A stretch of 34,873 nt of DNA from Thermodesulfobacteriota bacterium (lineage in GTDB: Bacteria; Desulfobacterota; DSM-4660; Desulfatiglandales; Desulfatiglandaceae). The notes beneath the pieces are model-generated. The model was not told the DNA's origin and searched no databases. It was given only the letters and a program-made list of their open reading frames with translations. The stretch spans positions 1 through 34,873 of the forward strand of contig JAUPKI010000100.1 of the NCBI GenBank assembly GCA_030837545.1. The letters are read 5' to 3'. Positions 82 to 31,004 of this stretch are shown here, piece after piece (position 1 is the first letter of the stretch; the number at the start of each line of letters is the position of its first letter). A program made the position numbers and the translations under genes.

Positions 82-137
82 GCCAATTTTATTGGTGGAC
101 CCATCGTCAATTCAGCGTGTTACACGACCTCCCAGTG

Positions 138-1262
138 ATGAATAAACACCCATGTCATGATCTGGACGCCACATTGATGCGGCTGGCCCTGCGAGAGGCC
201 CGGAAAGGGTTGGGTCGGACCTCGCCCAATCCTGCGGTGGGGGCGGTCATTGTCATCAACGGGGAGGTCGCGGCAAGGGGGTATCACCGGCGGGCAGGTC
301 TCCCCCATGCAGAGGTGGAGGCCTTGAGCCGGTTGGGGAACCATTGTCCCGAAGGCACCCTATACGTCACCCTCGAACCCTGCAATCATGTGGGAAAAAC
401 GCCGCCCTGCACTCAGGCGATTCTGAAGAGCGGCATTCGAAAAGTGGTGGTGGGGATGAAAGATCCCAATCCACGGGTGACCGGGGGCGGTTGTGCTTTC
501 CTGGAGGCCCACGGCATTGATGTGACAGTGGGCGTCCTGGAGGCCGAATGCCGGCGACTCAATGAAGACTTCCTGGTATCTGTCAGAGAAGGACGTCCCT
601 TTGTCATTGCCAAGTCGGCCATGACCCTGGATGGATGGACCGCAACATCCGCCGGGCACTCAAAATGGATCTCCAACGAGGAATCAAGGGCCTTTGTTAA
701 CCGCCTGAGGAACAGGGTGGATGCCGTGATGGTGGGGATCGGAACGGTCCTTGCGGATAACCCCTCGCTGACCACGCGACTGAAAAAGGGGAAGGGGAGA
801 GATCCCCTCCGCATCGTTGTGGATACCCATCTCAGGATTCCACGCGATGCAAAGGTGGTGACCCAGCATTCATCCGCACCTACGCTGATTGTTACCGGTG
901 AAGGCATGGCAGCACCGGATTGCCAGCCCTTCCGGGGAGGCGGCGTCTCCACACTGGCCTGCCCGCTCCGGGAAGGGAAAATCGATCTCAAGGCGTTGAT
1001 GAAGCGGTTGGGAGAGATGTCGGTCATGAGCGTTCTGCTGGAAGGGGGCGCGGCCATTATGGGCTCCATGCTGAGGGAAAGACTGATCGATAAATTTTAC
1101 CTCTTCAAGGCGCCCAGGCTCCTTTGCGGGGATGACGGTGTTCCCATGGCAGGAGGGCCGGGACCCGAAAAAATGGACAACGCCATGCTCTTGAAAGATA
1201 TTCGGGTGAGACGATTTGGAGATGACACCCTAATAAGAGGATATCCGTCATATAGGACTTGA
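138..1262 (+). CDS. ribD: RibD: bifunctional pyrimidine deaminase/reductase of riboflavin synthesis
   Basis: RibD deaminates 2,5-diamino-6-ribosylamino-pyrimidinone 5'-phosphate and then reduces the ribosyl side chain with NADPH, the second and third steps of riboflavin synthesis. Counting from ATG 138, the zinc deaminase domain shows H57-A-E59 and the C82/C91 pair in PCNHVGKTPPC. The C-terminal half is a DHFR-like reductase with KSAMTLDGW and a glycine-rich LLEGGAAIMGS segment near the end. The full length of about 374 residues is normal. The frame is open from GTG 117, but ATG 138 places the start close to the conserved MRLALREA helix, as in other RibD proteins. It follows nrdR by about 55 bases. 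The ribE-ribBA-ribH genes expected next to it are about 27 kb away on the other strand. Confidence 0.96.
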   Translation: MNKHPCHDLDATLMRLALREARKGLGRTSPNPAVGAVIVINGEVAARGYHRRAGLPHAEVEALSRLGNHCPEGTLYVTLEPCNHVGKTPPCTQAILKSGIRKVVVGMKDPNPRVTGGGCAFLEAHGIDVTVGVLEAECRRLNEDFLVSVREGRPFVIAKSAMTLDGWTATSAGHSKWISNEESRAFVNRLRNRVDAVMVGIGTVLADNPSLTTRLKKGKGRDPLRIVVDTHLRIPRDAKVVTQHSSAPTLIVTGEGMAAPDCQPFRGGGVSTLACPLREGKIDLKALMKRLGEMSVMSVLLEGGAAIMGSMLRERLIDKFYLFKAPRLLCGDDGVPMAGGPGPEKMDNAMLLKDIRVRRFGDDTLIRGYPSYRT

Positions 1263-12910: not shown

Positions 12911-14296
12911 GTGAAGGGGTGCCTTTTGTCAAGGGGCTTTTATATTGAGACCATGGGTTGCCAGATGAATGCCCATGATTCTGATTTTATGGCCCAGTCT
13001 CTGATCGACAGCGGATTTGTTCCGGTAAGCAGTCCCGAACAGGCTGACGTGATCCTGGTCAACACGTGCGTGGTGCGGGCCAAGCCTGAGCAGAAGGCCT
13101 ACAGCTTTCTGGGCCGCGCATCGGGCATCAAGGCTGAAAATCCGTTGAAATTCCTGGGAATCATTGGATGTCTCGCCCAGATGAAGGGCGCTGACCTCCT
13201 CAAACGCTTTCCGCAACTGGACCTGATCATGGGTCCGAGGGAGCTATCCCGCTTTCCAGAGATCGTGAAAACAATCGATCGTCCATCGGTAAAAATCGTG
13301 GCTACCCATCTGGATCCCGCGCCCCCTTGTCACATCCCCGGCCACGGGTGCCTTCGCAAGAAGGTGACTGGTTATGTCTCCATTATGGAGGGGTGCAACA
13401 ACTTCTGCAGCTATTGCATTGTCCCTTATGTTCGAGGGCGCGAGACATCGAGATCCCCCAAAGAGATCATGGCCGAGGCAGTCCATCTCCTCTCACATGG
13501 AGTGAAAGAAATTACCCTGCTGGGACAAAACGTCAACTCCTACCTCTGGAAGGGGAGGGGCGGACGTCAGAGACGGAATTTTCCGGACCTCCTGAGCGAG
13601 CTGAGCACATTGGATGGTCTGCTGCGGCTCCGCTTTGTCACCTCGCATCCAAAGGACCTCTCCGATGAGCTGATTTCCTGTTTCGGCGGGATCCACAACC
13701 TTTGCCCGCATATTCATCTCCCGTTTCAGGCCGGCTCAAACCGAATTCTTAAGCTCATGCGTCGAGGCTATACGCGGGAGGACTACATGACGCTGATTCA
13801 GAAGTTGAGAGCGGTCAAACCGGATATTGCCATTACCAGCGATGTGATGGTAGGGTTCCCAGGTGAAAGCGACCAAGATTTTGAAGACACCCTCGGTCTA
13901 ATCCGTTACGTTAGGTTTGATTCCCTGTTTTCATTCACCTATTCCGACCGAAGGGGAACTGCAGCCGAGCAAATGGGAGACAAGATTGATGACCTGACAA
14001 AGGCTGCCCGACTGAATACCCTGCAAAACGTCCAAAAAGGCATAACGCTTGAAAAAAACAAGGAACTTGAAGGGAAGCCTGCCGTCATACTGGTGGAAGG
14101 CGGTAGCAAGAAAGGGCACCAGCTCTCCGGAAGAACAGATACTTATAAAATCGTTAATTTCATCGCAAATGACCGTCTGATAGGAAGCTTAGTTAATGTT
14201 AAAATTAAACGTTCTTTCCTGAATTCACTATGGGGAGAATGGATCTCTTCGGTTCTCCCTAACAGTCAGGATCTTCGCGACTTCGGGGTGATGTGA
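12911..14296 (+). CDS. miaB: MiaB: tRNA-2-methylthio-N6-dimethylallyladenosine synthase
   Basis: This radical SAM methylthiotransferase adds the 2-methylthio group to i6A37 of tRNAs that read UNN codons. The N-terminal UPF0004 domain shows ETMGCQMNAHDS (C17), NTCVV (C53) and GCLAQ (C87), which ligate the auxiliary 4Fe-4S cluster. The radical SAM motif CNNFCSYC gives C162, C166 and C169, followed by VPYVRGRETSR. A TRAM domain closes the protein (from about residue 390, with LSGRTDTYKIVNF). The start is uncertain: GTG 12911 is the longest, but TTG 12926 has AAGGGG seven bases upstream and would also leave the first cysteine intact. The AT-rich spacer before it contains a TATAAT at 12863 without a good -35. 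Confidence 0.94.
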   Translation: MKGCLLSRGFYIETMGCQMNAHDSDFMAQSLIDSGFVPVSSPEQADVILVNTCVVRAKPEQKAYSFLGRASGIKAENPLKFLGIIGCLAQMKGADLLKRFPQLDLIMGPRELSRFPEIVKTIDRPSVKIVATHLDPAPPCHIPGHGCLRKKVTGYVSIMEGCNNFCSYCIVPYVRGRETSRSPKEIMAEAVHLLSHGVKEITLLGQNVNSYLWKGRGGRQRRNFPDLLSELSTLDGLLRLRFVTSHPKDLSDELISCFGGIHNLCPHIHLPFQAGSNRILKLMRRGYTREDYMTLIQKLRAVKPDIAITSDVMVGFPGESDQDFEDTLGLIRYVRFDSLFSFTYSDRRGTAAEQMGDKIDDLTKAARLNTLQNVQKGITLEKNKELEGKPAVILVEGGSKKGHQLSGRTDTYKIVNFIANDRLIGSLVNVKIKRSFLNSLWGEWISSVLPNSQDLRDFGVM

Positions 14297-14298
14297 GC

Positions 14299-15222
14299 AT
14301 GGGAACAGAAGATATCCGTTATAGCGATGAGTCGATACTGGTGGTGGACGACGAGGAGTTTGTAAGGGAACCGATTGTCGCCATGTTGGAGCGCCTTGGC
14401 TTTAAGGCCGAGGCCGCGGGATCTGGAGAGGAGGCGCTGGAAAGACTTGGCAATGCAGGTGCCACGTTCCTGCTGACAGATATCCGTATGCCCGGGCGTG
14501 TGGACGGGCTTGAACTGATCCGTGAGACGAAGCGCCAATACCCGAATGTCTTCGCTATTGCAATGACCGGCCATTCAAAAGAATTCAATTATGTCGAAGT
14601 GATCAATGCGGGGGCCACAGACTTCGTGAACAAGCCGTTCGGGATTGAGGAACTCGAGGCCAAGATAAAGCGGGCTATGATTGAGCGAAACACCCGTAAG
14701 GAACTCAACAGACTGTCCATTACCGATGCCCTGACTGGGCTCTACAACCAGCGCCATTTCTATGCCCGACTCAAGGAGGAGATGGCCAGGTCCAAGAGGC
14801 AGAAGCATAACCTGGCATTAGTTCTCTTTGATCTGGACGGTTTCAAGGAGTATAATGATCATTTTGGGCATCTCGCCGGCGACAAACTCCTTCAGAGGGT
14901 TGGAGAGGTCATCAGCAGCAGGGTCAGGCAGGATGTGGATTCAGGATACCGCTACGGCGGGGATGAATTTGCCGTCATACTCATAGACGCAGATGCTGCG
15001 GTTGCAGAAATGATGTCCGCCCGCATTAGAGAAGGTATTGAGAAGACATGCGGGCTGACGGCCAGTGCAGGGTATGCGATTTTTTCCGAAGGTCTGACGG
15101 CTGACGAACTGGTTGCCGAGGCCGACAAACGGCTGTACGCATGTAAAGAACAGCAGAAGAAAGGCATACGCCGGGAGCCCTTTGGCGCTTTCCAAAATGG
15201 AGATAGCCATCCGGAGCCGTAA
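14299..15222 (+). CDS. Response regulator with GGDEF output (diguanylate cyclase)
   Basis: Residues 10-125 form a receiver domain: acidic pair D17-D18, phosphoacceptor D61 in TDIRMPG, T90 and K112 in NKPF. Residues about 138-300 form a GGDEF domain with ITDALTGLYNQRHF, DLDGFKEYND and the exact motif GGDEF at 220-224, so c-di-GMP synthesis is predicted after phosphorylation of the receiver. The allosteric I-site RxxD that usually precedes the motif is replaced by QDVD, so product inhibition may be lost. GTG 14293 overlaps the miaB stop; ATG 14299 has GGGGTGA at a better distance and is preferred. No sensor kinase is adjacent. Confidence 0.9.
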   Translation: MGTEDIRYSDESILVVDDEEFVREPIVAMLERLGFKAEAAGSGEEALERLGNAGATFLLTDIRMPGRVDGLELIRETKRQYPNVFAIAMTGHSKEFNYVEVINAGATDFVNKPFGIEELEAKIKRAMIERNTRKELNRLSITDALTGLYNQRHFYARLKEEMARSKRQKHNLALVLFDLDGFKEYNDHFGHLAGDKLLQRVGEVISSRVRQDVDSGYRYGGDEFAVILIDADAAVAEMMSARIREGIEKTCGLTASAGYAIFSEGLTADELVAEADKRLYACKEQQKKGIRREPFGAFQNGDSHPEP

Positions 15223-15444
15223 ATATCGCGCAATCAAAAGTGTCCGATAATGTATATTATGTAAACTTAATGAACGAAGGTCTAAATCTCAGGAGAACTT
15301 CACACCCTCTATAGCCGGTTTGAAAATATACGTTGACATATCCCCTTGACATTTGGTAGAGACGGTCTCACTGCAATGAGCGATCGATCCTGAATACAAA
15401 TCAAATCCCTTTCCTCGTAACTTATCGAACGGAGGTTGTATCGA
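15223..15444. other. Leader/intergenic region before the bS22-like gene
   Basis: There is no gene here. Two exact TTGACA hexamers occur 13 bases apart (15333-15338 and 15346-15351), but neither has a good -10 at the normal distance. An 11-base palindrome GAGACGGTCTC (15359-15369) sits where a -10 would be expected. This could be an activator- or repressor-controlled promoter or chance. A strong GGAGG at 15431-15435 belongs to the next gene. Confidence 0.35.
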
Positions 15445-15534
15445 ATGGGTAGTGTGGTCAAGAAGCGGCGGAAGAAAATTACAAAGCACAAATACCGAAA
15501 GCTCCGCAAGAAAATGCGTCATAAGAACAAATAA
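15445..15534 (+). CDS. bS22/AURKAIP1-COX24-like small basic protein
   Basis: A 29-residue open frame starts at ATG 15445 with GGAGG nine bases upstream and stops at TAA 15532. Its N-terminal part MGSVVKKRRKKITKHKYRKL closely matches the MGSVIKKRRKxMxKHKxRKL pattern of the COX24/AURKAIP1 family, which includes the tiny ribosomal protein bS22 of mycobacteria and mitoribosomal mS38. Fifteen of 29 residues are Lys or Arg, as expected for an rRNA-binding peptide. An intrinsic terminator follows 21 bases after the stop, marking a single-gene transcript. Automatic annotation would miss it because of its size. A role in the small ribosomal subunit is an inference from the family. Confidence 0.82.
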   Translation: MGSVVKKRRKKITKHKYRKLRKKMRHKNK

Positions 15535-15555
15535 TATTCTCTGTTAACAGAAGCG

Positions 15556-15586
15556 AAAAAGGCAGCTCGGGTCGAGCTGCCTTTTT
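15556..15586 (+). terminator. Intrinsic terminator after the bS22-like gene
   Basis: A nine-base perfect stem GGCAGCTCG/CGAGCTGCC (15561-15569 and 15573-15581) with a three-base loop is followed by five T and preceded by five A. The A-tract makes it potentially bidirectional, so it could also end the leftward hbd transcript, whose stop lies about 30 bases to the right. Confidence 0.9.
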
Positions 15587-15616
15587 CATGCCGAATCAAT
15601 GGGAGGTCAGTAATCG

Positions 15617-16477
15617 CTACTTGCCGTATTCGTACCAGCCCCCCCCTGTTTTTCTGCCCAGTCTATTTGCCCGGATCATGGTCTTGAGGAGGTTGGGAGA
15701 AGCCCATTTGGACTCCTTATTGAGTTCCTTGTAAAAATATTCAGCAACAAAGTAACAGACATCAATCCCCGTCAGGTCCATCAATTCAAACGGCCCCATG
15801 GGGTAATTAAGGCCGTTCTTGACCGCCGTGTCAACATCCTTCGGCGTAGCGATCCCTTCCTCAACGATCTTAATGGCCTCTATCATGTGAGGAATCATAA
15901 TCCGGTTGACAATAAATCCGGGAGAATCTTTTTTGACCTCTACGGTTATCTTTCCCATCTTCTGCGCGACCGCCGTGGTCGTTGCCACGGTTTCGTCGCT
16001 CGTCGAATACCCCCTGATAATCTCAACGAGCTTCATTAATGGGACGGGATTGAAGAAGTGCATTCCGCAGACCTTTTCCGGACGTTGGGTGGCTGCGGCG
16101 ATCTCGGTCAGGGACATGGACGAGGTATTGGATGCCAGGATCACCTCGGGGGGACACAGATCATCAAGTTCCTTGAAAACGCTTTTCTTTAAATTCAGGT
16201 CTTCAATAACCGCCTCAATCACCAAATCCACACCCTTCATGAGTGCCAGATCTGTGGTGCCCTGAATTCGGCCCATGACCGCTTTTTTTTGAGCCGCATC
16301 CATCTTCCCTTTTTCAACACTCTTCGAGAGAAAGCGGTCGATGCTTTTCATCCCTCGATCGACAAATTCATCCTTGACATCTCTCATCACAACGTCACAC
16401 CCGATCTGGGCTGCGATCTGCGCAATGCCGTTTCCCATCGTGCCCGCGCCGACGACGCCAATCTTTTTGATCTCCAT
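15617..16477 (-). CDS. hbd: 3-hydroxybutyryl-CoA (3-hydroxyacyl-CoA) dehydrogenase
   Basis: It interconverts (S)-3-hydroxyacyl-CoA and 3-oxoacyl-CoA with NAD(H), in beta-oxidation or butyrate-type metabolism. The Rossmann motif is VVGAGTMGNGIAQ (GAGTMG at 10-15). The catalytic dyad is visible as H140 in GMHFFNP and E152 in KLVE, with ASNTSS before it. The C-terminal dimerisation domain has DSPGFIVNRI, LNYPMGPFELMDLTG and GRKTGGGWYEY. The 286-residue length fits the stand-alone Hbd class (no crotonase domain). ATG 16477 has AAAGGAG seven bases upstream. No thiolase, crotonase or acyl-CoA dehydrogenase gene is nearby, so the pathway cannot be assigned from context. Confidence 0.95.
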   Translation of the reverse strand: MEIKKIGVVGAGTMGNGIAQIAAQIGCDVVMRDVKDEFVDRGMKSIDRFLSKSVEKGKMDAAQKKAVMGRIQGTTDLALMKGVDLVIEAVIEDLNLKKSVFKELDDLCPPEVILASNTSSMSLTEIAAATQRPEKVCGMHFFNPVPLMKLVEIIRGYSTSDETVATTTAVAQKMGKITVEVKKDSPGFIVNRIMIPHMIEAIKIVEEGIATPKDVDTAVKNGLNYPMGPFELMDLTGIDVCYFVAEYFYKELNKESKWASPNLLKTMIRANRLGRKTGGGWYEYGK

Positions 16478-20935: not shown

Positions 20936-21211
20936 TTGGCAAACCATCCATCAGCCCTGAAAAGGGCGAAACAGAATGAGGTCAAGAGAGTCAGAAACAA
21001 GAGTTCCAAGACAAGGGTCAAAAAGGCGGTCAAGGAAGTCAGGGCCGCCATTGCTGCCAATTCAGCAGAACAGGCCCAACAGGGCTTCAAGGAGGCTGTC
21101 TCCATCATTCAGAAGAGCGCTTCCAAGGGGGTTATTCATAAAAACCAGGCATCCCGAAAAATCTCCCGCCTGGCTCGCGGCATCAACCGGCTGACAGCCT
21201 CCGAAGGGTGA
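20936..21211 (+). CDS. rpsT: Ribosomal protein S20
   Basis: Small-subunit protein bS20, which binds 16S rRNA helices 9 and 44. The 91-residue sequence starts with ANHPSALKRAKQNEVKRVRN after the initiator, continues with SKTRVKKAVKEVRAAI and ends in the conserved KGVIHKNQASRKISRLARGI. The start codon is TTG at 20936, with AAGGAG eight bases upstream (20922-20927); a non-ATG start is a known feature of rpsT in several bacteria and is linked to its autoregulation. It has a near-consensus promoter and converges on holA, whose stop is only 27 bases beyond. Confidence 0.97.
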   Translation: MANHPSALKRAKQNEVKRVRNKSSKTRVKKAVKEVRAAIAANSAEQAQQGFKEAVSIIQKSASKGVIHKNQASRKISRLARGINRLTASEG

Positions 21212-22855: not shown

Positions 22856-25432
22856 CTACGCCACCACATTCACCAGCTTTTTCTGGACCACGATCACCTT
22901 TTTGATAGGTTTCGCGCCCACAAATTGCTGAACCCTTTCGTCCGCCAGGGCCGCCTCTTCGATGGCCCTCTCATCGTAGGAGGCGGGCACCTCGATCCGG
23001 TTGCGAACCTTTCCGTTGACCTGAAGCACGATCTGTCGCGTTTCAACCTGTAGTGCAGCCGCCTTATAGGTGGGCCAGGAGACCTCAATCAACGGTCTGT
23101 CGTGGCCAAGCATCTGCCACAGTTCTTCGGTGATGTGCGGCGCTACCGGGGAAAGGAGCACCACGGTCGTCTCCACTGCCTCCCTGACGACCGACCAGGC
23201 CGCATCATCCTTGTGTTCGCTGGTGTTCAGGAACTGATTCACGTCATTCACCAGTTCCATGACAGCGGAGATGGCCGTGTTGAAATGGAACCGATTTTCG
23301 ATGTCGGCTGTCACCCTTTTTATGGTCTCGTGGGTTTTTCGATGCAACGCCCGGATTCCCCCTTCAAGCGCTTCATCGCCCCCATATACCGACACTCCCA
23401 TGATGCTGCCAAGATTCAGGGTCACCAACCGCCAGATTCGATTGAGAAACCGGTACGACCCATCGACGCCCTGGTCGCTCCACTCCAGGTCCTTGTCCGG
23501 GGGCGAGGCGAAGAGGCAAAACATCCGGACCGTATCGGCCCCATATTGGTCAATCAGCTCCTGTGGATCAACCACATTCTTTTTGGACTTGGACATCTTC
23601 ACCGTGTTGCCCCGGATGACCTCGGCCTGGCAGTGGACGCATCTGCTGTCCTTGACCTCTGTGGGATACAGATATCCATGCTCCGGGCATTCCTCGGTCT
23701 CCTTGCAGACCATTCCCTGGGTCAACAGGTTGGTAAACGGCTCGCTGATCTTGAGAAAGCCAAAATCCCTCAGGACCCTGGTATAGAAACGGGAATACAG
23801 AAGGTGGAGGATGGCATGCTCAATCCCGCCGATATATTGGTCCACGGGCATCCAGTAATCCACCTTTTCCGGATCAAGGGGACCCTTATCGTAGCCTGGA
23901 CACGTGTATCGGTCAAAATACCAGGAAGACTCCACAAAGGTATCCATGGTGTCTGTTTCGCGCCGTGCCTTTCCCTTGCATTTCGGGCAGGTCGTCTCGA
24001 AAAAGGAGGGCTCAAACGGGAGGGGAGACCCACCGTTGGGCCGCATATCCAGTTCCAGGGGAAGAACCACCGGCAGGTCCTCTTCAGGGACCGGGACTGT
24101 TCCGCATGTATCGCAATAGATGATCGGAATGGGTGCCCCCCAGTATCGTTGTCGGGATATTCCCCAGTCTCTCAACCTGAAATTGACGGTTTTGTGTCCC
24201 CTGTCGATCGATTCCAGATAATCGGCAATGCTGTTGAGGGCGTCCAGGTTCGGCTGACCATTGAAAGGCCCAGAGTTGACCAGGATGCCCTCGCCCACAT
24301 AGGCCTCGGTCATGGTGGCCTCATCTATCTCTGCGTCCGGTGGTTGGATGACCACCCTGAGCCTTAGCCCGTATTTCTTCGCAAACTCGAAATCCCTCTG
24401 ATCATGGGTCGGGACAGCCATGATGGCGCCAGTGCCATAATCGAAGAGGACGAAGTTGGCCACGAAGATCGGAATCTCCTCGCCAGTCGCCGGATTGATG
24501 CAATGCCTTCCTGTAAAAGCGCCCTCTTTGACAGTAAACTCTGCCGTTCTCAGGAATCTATCCATCTTCAGCGTGCGCTCAACAAATTCCAAGACTTCCC
24601 GTTCCTGTGAGCAACCCTTTATGATCTCCTTTACGAGCGGATGTTCCGGCGCCAGGCACATGAAGGTGGCGCCGAACACTGTATCCTGCCGTGTGGTAAA
24701 GACCTCGACGACCTCGTCGGAACCGACCATGGGAAACCGAATAATAGCGCCGTAGCTCTTTCCGATCCAGTTTCGCTGCATGGTGAGCACCCGGTCTGGC
24801 CACCCCGGAAGCTTTTCACAATATTCGAGGATCTCATCTGCATAGTGCGTGATCTTGAGAAACCAGCTATCCATCTCCTTGATGATGACCTCTACGTCGG
24901 GATGGCGCCAGCAGCATCCGTCTTCAACCTGTTCGTTGGCAAGGACGGTCTGGCACTTGTCGCACCAGTTGACAAACGTCTTCTTTTTATAGGCCAGTCC
25001 CTTCTGGTACATCTTCAGGAATACCAACTGTTCCCATCGATAATATTCAGGATTGCAAGTGGCCAGTTCCCGGTCCCAGTCATAGCTGAACCCCATGCGC
25101 TTGAGCTGCGCCTTCATCGCAGCAATGTTATCATAGGTCCATCGGGCTGCATGGGTTTTGTTTTCTATGGCGGCGTTTTCTGCGGGCATGCCGAATGCAT
25201 CCCATCCCATGGGGTGGAGGACATTTTTGCCGCACATCCGCTTGTATCTGGCCACCACATCGCCGATGGTATAATTGCGCACATGGCCGATATGGATTTT
25301 ACCGGAAGGGTACGGAAACATCTCTAAAAGATAATACTTTTGTTTAGATATATCCTCTCTGCATTTGAAAAGATTGTTCTTTTCCCAATATGACTGCCAT
25401 TTAAGCTCTAATTCCTGCGGGTTATATTTCAT
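22856..25432 (-). CDS. leuS: Leucyl-tRNA synthetase
   Basis: A class I synthetase that charges tRNA-Leu. It shows the HIGH motif as HIGH at residues 47-50 in [15 protein letters not shown], zinc-like cysteine clusters ([20 protein letters not shown] and a second set near the C..C of [11 protein letters not shown]), a CP1 editing domain with [19 protein letters not shown] and [20 protein letters not shown] at about residues 611-615, and a C-terminal anticodon-binding domain. The length of 858 residues is standard for bacteria. Its ATG overlaps the end of nusB by 11 bases, so the two are translated in tandem. Long open frames on the opposite strand (for example 23102-24367) are codon-bias shadows. 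Confidence 0.98.
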
Positions 25433-26554: not shown

Positions 26555-27760
26555 CTATTCAATTCTCTTGAGCAGATGACCTAACTTGTGGCACTTGGTG
26601 GACAGGTACCGTATGTTTTCAGGCCTCGGGACACACTCGATGGGCACCCGTCCGGTGACCTGCAGTCCATACCCCTCGAGTCCGATAATCTTTTTGGGGT
26701 TATTGGTAAGAAGCCTCATCTTTTTCACTCCGATGGCAACCAGGATCTGGGCCCCCACCCCGTAATCCCTCAGGTCTGCGGCAAAACCGAGTTCCTCATT
26801 GGCCTCGACCGTATCGAATCCCTGATCCTGAAGGGCATAGGCCCTTAATTTATTGGCAAGGCCGATGCCCCGTCCCTCCTGCTGGAGATAAAGTATCACG
26901 CCGAGACCTTCTTTCTGGATCATGGACATGGCGGCTTCCAATTGCTCGCCGCAGTCGCAGCGATAGGAACTGAAGACATCCCCGGTCAGACATCCGGAAT
27001 GGACCCTGACCATCACGTCCGTATCCGGATCGATGGCGCCTTTTACCAGGGCCAGATGTTCATAATCGTCAATATCATTGACGAAGGCCATGGCCTTCCA
27101 TTCGCCGAAGGGTGTGGGTAACACCGTTTCCGCCGCCTTGTGGACAAAGGATTCGTTTCGCATCCGGTAGGAGATGATATCAGCGACGGTTGCGATCTTC
27201 AGACCGTGCTCTTTGGCAAATATCTCGAGGTCCGGCAACCGGGCCATACACCCGTCATCCTTCATAACTTCACAGATCACTGCGGCCGGCTTCAGACCGG
27301 CAAGTCGCGCAAGGTCGACGGAGCCTTCTGTCTGCCCGGTCCTGAACAACACCCCTCCCCGTCTGGCCCTGAGGGGGAAAACATGTCCGGGTTGAACAAG
27401 GTCTTCGGGTTTTGCATCATCCGATATGGCAGTCAAGATCGTATGGGCCCTGTCAGCAGCCGATATGCCGGTCGTGACGCCTCGAGCGGCCTCCACAGAT
27501 ACCGTAAAGGCCGTCTGGAAAGGGGATCGATTGTCACGAACCATCTGGTCAAGCTGCAATTTCTCTACGATCTCGGGTTCCAGGGCAAGGCAGATAAGGC
27601 CGCGACCGTATTTGGCCATAAAGTTGATCGCCTCCGGCGTCACCTTTTCCGCGGCTATGGTCAGGTCCCCTTCATTCTCCCTCCCCTCATCGTCCACCAG
27701 GATGATCATTTTTCCTTGTTGCAAATCCGGTAACACGTCTTCTATGTTGGAGATCGGCAT
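26555..27760 (-). CDS. ribBA: RibBA: DHBP synthase / GTP cyclohydrolase II
   Basis: This bifunctional enzyme supplies both riboflavin precursors: dihydroxybutanone phosphate from ribulose-5-phosphate (N-terminal half) and the first pyrimidine from GTP (C-terminal half). The N-terminal half shows [17 protein letters not shown] and [20 protein letters not shown]; the C-terminal half shows [20 protein letters not shown] with the zinc cysteines, [12 protein letters not shown] and LLTNNPKKI. Of the possible starts, ATG 27760 has AAAAGGA eight bases upstream and gives the usual MPISNIE beginning; ATG 27778 is six codons earlier. It is flanked by ribE and ribH. A tandem 13-base repeat lies just upstream. 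Confidence 0.97.
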
Positions 27761-27796
27761 GTTCAAGATCCTTTTCATCTCACTTCATTGTCATTA

Positions 27797-29813: not shown

Positions 29814-30770
29814 TCAGCAGTCCTCTCCTACAGATGTTGCCGCGACCCTGTTCCGGCCTTCCTGCTTCGCCCTATACAGGCACTTGTCTGCGACACGGAT
29901 CATGGCCTCGTGGGAGAGGGCCTCCAGCAACCCCATCACGCCCCGGTCTGATGAAAGGCCTGTAACACCGAAACTGGCCGTGATCCGAATGTCCTTTCCG
30001 TTGTATGAAATGATCTGCTCCGATACTGTCGTACGCAGTCTCTCGGCCAGCAGTTGGGCGCTTTCAAAATCCGTTTCAGGAAGAACCACAATAAATTCCT
30101 CTCCCCCATAACGGGCGATCCAATCCACTTTTGATCGGATCGACCGGCCCATGGTTTCAACCAAGACCTTCAATACCTGATCGCCTGCCTGGTGCCCGTA
30201 TGTGTCATTGACCTCCTTAAAGTGATCGATATCCACCATAACGATGGAAATTGCGTGACCATAACGTACTGCCCGTTGCAGCTCCTTGGAAAGATGCTCG
30301 TCCATATAGGTGCGGTTGTAGCACCCTGTCATGGTGTCGGTTATGGACAGCACGCGGATGGCTTCATTGGCTTCCTTTAACGATTTCTCCAGATTCAGGA
30401 TACGGACAGCCGTCTTAAGGCGGGCAAAGAGTTCTGCCCGGTCGAAGGGTTTTGTCAGATAATCGTCAGCTCCGGCCTCCAGGCCGGCGATCATGTCAGC
30501 CCTGGAGTCTCTGGCCGTCAACAAAAATATAAAGACATAACCGGCTGAGACATTCTCTCGAATACTTCGACATAGCTGCAATCCGTCCACATCCGGCATC
30601 ATCCAATCGGTAAACACAATGGGGAAGAACCGCTCATTGAAGCATGCCAGAGCCTCACGTCCATCCTTCGCGCACACCACGTCATACCCGGCCTTCCTCA
30701 GCGTCATTTCCAGAAGCATCCGCGAAACCGGATCATCTTCGACAACGAGAACAGAAAAGTGATTTTCCAA
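29814..30770 (-). CDS. Response regulator with GGEEF output (PleD-like diguanylate cyclase)
   Basis: The receiver domain occupies residues 5-125: acidic E13-D14-D15, phosphoacceptor D57 in TDWMMPD, T87 in LLTARD and K109 in LTKPF (numbering from TTG 30776). After a coiled linker (NLEKSLKEANEAIRVL) comes the cyclase domain with ITDTMTGCYNRTYMDEHL, VDIDHFKEVND and GGEEF at 224-228. The RxxD inhibition site is absent (SKVD in its place). TTG 30776 opens the frame, but TTG 30770 has GGGGAG at seven bases spacing and is preferred. It is the second REC-GGDEF protein in the window and also lacks an adjacent kinase. Confidence 0.9.
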   Translation of the reverse strand: MENHFSVLVVEDDPVSRMLLEMTLRKAGYDVVCAKDGREALACFNERFFPIVFTDWMMPDVDGLQLCRSIRENVSAGYVFIFLLTARDSRADMIAGLEAGADDYLTKPFDRAELFARLKTAVRILNLEKSLKEANEAIRVLSITDTMTGCYNRTYMDEHLSKELQRAVRYGHAISIVMVDIDHFKEVNDTYGHQAGDQVLKVLVETMGRSIRSKVDWIARYGGEEFIVVLPETDFESAQLLAERLRTTVSEQIISYNGKDIRITASFGVTGLSSDRGVMGLLEALSHEAMIRVADKCLYRAKQEGRNRVAATSVGEDC

Positions 30771-31004
30771 GGACAAACTCCCCTCGCCTCAAACACCGGC
30801 CTTTGACCTTGTTGCTCGAACACAGCTCGTTTCATACCACGTTTTTGCATCAGAGTGAACAATAATCTGGAGGGATTCTGCGCCTTGACTCTCATGGGTT
30901 ACATCACTATATTCCTCTAAATTGAGGTGTTGGCGGCGGATCATCAGCAAACCGGTTATCGGGTTGCCAAGCTTCCACACCCGAGGCTCAACAGGTACAA
31001 GCAT

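Follow-up and report, generated by a model that had tools for sequence, protein, structure and literature searches.

Identification of a bS22 gene in the terminus region

The window, by which we mean the whole 34,873-nucleotide stretch of Thermodesulfobacteriota DNA that was analysed, very probably contains an independently expressed, functional bS22 gene at positions 15445-15534, the counterpart of mitochondrial mS38 (AURKAIP1/COX24); this assignment was reached by sequence comparison. The coding region runs from 15445 to 15531 on the plus strand, with the TAA stop extending to 15534, and translates to the 29-residue peptide MGSVVKKRRKKITKHKYRKLRKKMRHKNK. Lysine or arginine accounts for 16 of the 29 residues and acidic residues are lacking, giving a pI of 12 and an average mass of 3692.6 Da. 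The earlier note had likened the peptide to the pattern MGSVIKKRRKxM; the family resemblance holds, but the actual peptide starts MGSVVKKRRKKI. An in-frame TTG at 15436 was rejected as the start codon, being neither conserved nor separated by any spacing from the GGAGG motif that it abuts.

A profile was built solely from bS22-like peptides, with the near lineage excluded. It scored the bS22 ORF at 53.6 bits and the next-best frame in the window at 4.2 bits; when the whole window was dinucleotide-shuffled 100 times, the highest score reached was 12.5 bits. Comparison of the first 27 codons of 29 related loci with the window as reference revealed 88, 59 and 415 differences at codon positions 1, 2 and 3, respectively, and selection on this ORF therefore acts at the level of the peptide. 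Six relatives with the same peptide through residue 27 differed from it by 7-15 bases, nearly all of them at third positions. The translation, the outside-lineage profile score and the codon-position bias thus agree that the 29-residue ORF is real.

The bS22/COX24-like identity was also borne out. Pfam COX24_C (PF08213) matched over positions 1-27 of 33 with 35.1 bits against a gathering cut-off of 23. The NCBIfam equivalog model NF047430 (ribo_bS22) matched over model positions 1-27 of 31 with 33.7 bits (E = 2.8e-8), missing its cut-off of 34 by 0.3, and all 22 aligned relatives matched this model at E ≤ 0.01. The NF047430 result is borderline, and the peptide is a homologue by the other tests rather than by an automatic equivalog call. 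When the single sequence was searched with phmmer against solved chains, bS22 of Cutibacterium and Mycobacterium and plant mS38 were recovered at E-values of 0.0012-0.05. A 24-member profile matched the solved bS22 chains at 4.6e-10 to 3e-8 and also matched animal and yeast mS38, showing that the peptide is homologous to the bS22 chains of solved 30S structures. An eL32 chain was among the phmmer matches at E = 2.2. Such a highly basic 29-mer would easily align with other basic helices; the profile scores and shuffles nevertheless separate bS22 clearly.

Eight residues (M1, S3, V4, K6, R8, K11, K16 and K19) were invariant in 24 members from several phyla. A subtype with tryptophan at position 7 (MGSV[LI]KWR...) was observed at loci L030, L042, L047, L056, L072, L087 and L088, and is borne by some members of the order, by Syntrophorhabdaceae and by Sumerlaeota.

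Comparison with known bS22 and mS38 proteins

The bS22 proteins of Mycobacterium and Cutibacterium (PF08213, NF047430; PDB 5O61, 8CRX) are likewise short, basic, free-standing peptides, and their MGSVxKKRRK core aligns with the window peptide without gaps over positions 1-26. They differ in length (33 residues compared to 29) and in the C-terminal third, where the window peptide carries KMRHKNK instead of the actinobacterial tail; the window genome also encodes bS21. The C-terminal domain of mitochondrial mS38 (AURKAIP1/Cox24) aligns over ~25 residues, the aligned plant segment being SVKKKRKKKMNKHKYRKLRKQLGRK, but mS38 has a long N-terminal extension that the window peptide does not share. Yeast mS38 additionally affects mRNA-specific translation (PMC6582356).

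In Borrelia burgdorferi, bS22 has been identified by cryo-EM (PMC10618245), and the same holds for Flavobacterium johnsoniae (cited in PMC10618245 and PMC10085706). The Borrelia gene has a GUG start and was previously unannotated, mass spectrometry itself failed to detect its product, and the authors predicted that there are more unannotated bS22 genes (PMC10618245). These proteins are also short, highly basic and free-standing, in species that carry bS21 too (PMC10618245); the likeness drawn here is one of description, as neither the F. johnsoniae nor the B. burgdorferi bS22 was recovered in our profile search of the PDB at E ≤ 1. The proteins eL41 and aL41 have been reported in the same pocket as bS22 (PMC10618245, PMC10085706). 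They gave no sequence match with the window bS22, and the two are possibly convergent.

Distribution of bS22

Within the family of the window, 23 of 27 genomes were bS22-positive by profile, as were 15 of the 17 cleanest. The frame is kept in relatives, as seen both from the Pfam search (46/61 positive) and from the codon-position bias in the 29 loci. We inspected several of the absences individually. Three genomes (G025, G028 and G039) reach a contig edge beside the expected place, in G015 the contig stops within the gene, just after MGSVVKKRR, and in G052 the first half of the gene falls in an N-gap. G055 and G059 were negative by Pfam and positive by profile. Only in G026, whose assembly is 83% complete, is dif followed by a different gene, and bS22 was not found in this genome.

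In the wider phylum, about a quarter of the clean genomes (101/375) were positive, and a similar share (47 of 201 sampled genomes) was obtained for Chloroflexota, the phylum of a Dehalococcoidia genome. The E-values of nearly all hits were far below the threshold and a gap separated them from it, so the presence/absence pattern looks real. Divergent bS22 could be missed, because a Bacteroides control matched bS21 and not PF08213. The named hits comprised Desulfobacteraceae-type MAGs, Syntrophales, Syntrophorhabdaceae, Anaerolineae, Dehalococcoidia, Sumerlaeota, Methylomirabilota and an Actinomycetes MAG. Two genomes carried two copies each (G253 on C174 and C201, G362 on C61 and C129), which may reflect genuine paralogy or contamination during binning. 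Neither a tblastn search against phages nor a search of viral contigs returned bS22 copies.

The earlier note had proposed that a homologue in this lineage would bear on ribosome composition beyond actinobacteria and mitochondria. That claim has been overtaken: bS22 has already been reported from Flavobacterium and Borrelia, NCBI maintains a family model for it, and the window gene adds a member to a known family rather than a new kind of protein. What is added here is the distribution across its own phylum, Chloroflexota, Sumerlaeota and Methylomirabilota, a lineage-wide gene set in a group for which we found no solved ribosome, and the dif neighbour described below. The strong variation of bS22 presence within phyla makes it a good case for studying the function of an optional decoding-centre protein. 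It is conceivable, though in our view rather doubtful, that bS22 is an ancient and perhaps ancestral bacterial ribosomal protein, orthologous to mS38, and that repeated losses, among them those in the model organisms from which the canonical list was drawn, have left its distribution patchy. If so, the Desulfobacterota-type, Chloroflexota, Sumerlaeota, Methylomirabilota and Actinomycetota genes found here would be its remnants, together with those of Bacteroidota and Spirochaetota in the literature.

Proposed role on the ribosome

The most likely role of the peptide is that of bS22/mS38. By homology with published structures of relatives, the extremely basic ~3.7-kDa peptide would fold as a bent helix upon binding rRNA. 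It would occupy a pocket of 16S rRNA formed by h27, h44 and h45 (and h2), under or beside the decoding centre, and reach over to H67/H68 of 23S rRNA, where it may steady upper h44 together with the decoding region and the joint between the subunits. The contacts reported for relatives are h2, h27, h44, h45 and H68 (PMC10618245) and h27/h44/h45 and H67 (PMC10085706); a structural role is also described in PMC5876184, and the relation of mS38 to h44 in PMC6582356. Binding to the ribosome, the site occupied and the effect on decoding are all inferred from these relatives. Because the genome encodes bS21 as well, and bS20 (rpsT) lies within the window, bS22 is an addition and not a substitute for either protein; replacement of bS21 by bS22 was rejected for this genome on the same ground. 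The prediction is testable in the cultured strain NaphS2, since its peptide is identical to that of the window.

A bS22-derived peptide could instead act off the ribosome, for example as a free cationic peptide with antimicrobial or translation-inhibiting activity. In its free form, C. acnes bS22 blocks growth and cell-free translation (PMC10085706), and the window peptide is equally basic (K/R 16/29). However, no recognisable export or immunity gene lies beside bS22, and the residues common to solved bS22 and mS38 are retained. The gene is also near-universal, single-copy and slow-evolving in the family, as fits a housekeeping part rather than a free peptide. We therefore consider an off-ribosome peptide very unlikely.

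bS22 lies beside the predicted dif site

The gene preceding bS22 encodes a response regulator with a GGDEF domain (14293-15222, plus strand), and the gene following it is a convergent 3-hydroxyacyl-CoA dehydrogenase gene (15617-16477, minus strand). Both neighbours are syntenic across the order; bS22 is a protein-coding ORF that the clade has kept, along with its gene order. Immediately downstream of the GGDEF gene, at 15240-15267 on the plus strand, lies a predicted dif site (GTGTCCGATAATGTATATTATGTAAACT), a 28-mer comprising an 11-bp XerC arm, a 6-bp centre and an 11-bp XerD arm. It shares 21-24 of its 28 positions with published proteobacterial dif sites and is the sole copy in the genome at ≤ 3 mismatches in the 21-base core. 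At 15-16 kb the GC skew of the window changes sign, being positive before and negative after except for a smaller positive stretch at 18-22 kb, and most large genes on both sides point towards dif. In the single-contig relative G034, dif is located at 0.475 of the genome from dnaA. The distance is just 0.11 of the genome in single-contig G058, whose contig order is doubtful because G052, a single-contig MAG of the same genus, holds N-gaps. Collectively, the two Xer arms, the single copy and the skew switch opposite the origin suggest that 15240-15267 is dif and that the window represents the region where replication terminates.

Of the 30 loci from the order, 28 have bS22 located 102-303 bp downstream of dif, which would suit a basic nucleic-acid-binding peptide acting at dif or the terminus instead of on the ribosome. 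Against this, three genomes that belong to other families of the phylum (G404, G299 and G072) have bS22 and dif separated by about 394 kb, 1.84 Mb and 1.64 Mb, respectively, and in other phyla its neighbours differ while the protein family stays the same everywhere. The adjacency is therefore a lineage-specific conserved gene order. Its absence from the three genomes outside the order weakens a functional link between bS22 and dif, and we regard a peptide acting at dif as extremely unlikely; we infer that the ribosomal protein gene sits there through an old conserved gene order of the terminus and not through any action of bS22 at the site. The dif site by bS22 provides a second, independent landmark of the chromosome terminus for the order.

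Several other features of the region were observed. A second response-regulator/GGDEF protein, similar in architecture to that at 14293-15222 (plus strand), is encoded on the opposite side of dif (29814-30776, minus strand), and the two are possibly paralogues. On the left of dif is ribD (117-1262, plus strand), and on the right are ribBA (26555-27778, minus strand) and leuS (22856-25432, minus strand); an inversion around the terminus may have separated the members of this riboflavin gene group (ribD, ribBA). The bS20 gene rpsT (20936-21211) is on the plus strand, in a part of the window, to the right of dif, where the minus strand carries most large genes.

Expression signals around bS22

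The strong GGAGG site described in the earlier note is present at 15431-15435 (plus strand), 9 nt before the bS22 ATG, and a core Shine-Dalgarno sequence precedes bS22 in all 30 related loci. Although 29 codons could arise by chance, an accidental basic ORF without a product has a negligible probability given this Shine-Dalgarno conservation and the profile score of 53.6 bits against at most 12.5 in the shuffles, and it is in effect refuted by the codon-position pattern.

A candidate sigma-70-type promoter for bS22 was identified by consensus match at 15333-15361 on the plus strand. It comprises TTGACA (15333-15338), a spacer of ~17 nt and a weak -10 element, GTAGAG. The TTGACA, which lies ~107-112 bp 5' of the ATG in the window, was invariant in 7/7 close relatives, and the -10-like element of the close relatives is GATAAN, compared to which the window version is weaker. 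A search of the window with Rfam gave no match to a structured RNA upstream, and a tRNA search found none. With its own candidate promoter, strong Shine-Dalgarno site and terminator, bS22 would be expressed from a short monocistronic mRNA.

A hairpin at 15555-15587, 20 nt past the bS22 stop, consists of a 15-bp stem and a GGT loop, with a minimum free energy of -25.5 kcal/mol compared to -11.5 +/- 2.5 for shuffles (z = -5.6). By our own scoring, 26 of the 30 loci have a strong hairpin and a T-run downstream of bS22. The earlier note had credited the gene with its own nine-base terminator. This attribution holds, but the nine bases are the GC-rich core (15561-15569 paired with 15573-15581) of the longer stem. 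A consensus terminator scan placed the hairpin on the minus strand; since the stem is A-rich and T-rich on opposite sides and the next gene is convergent, the terminator is probably bidirectional and shared between bS22 and the dehydrogenase gene.
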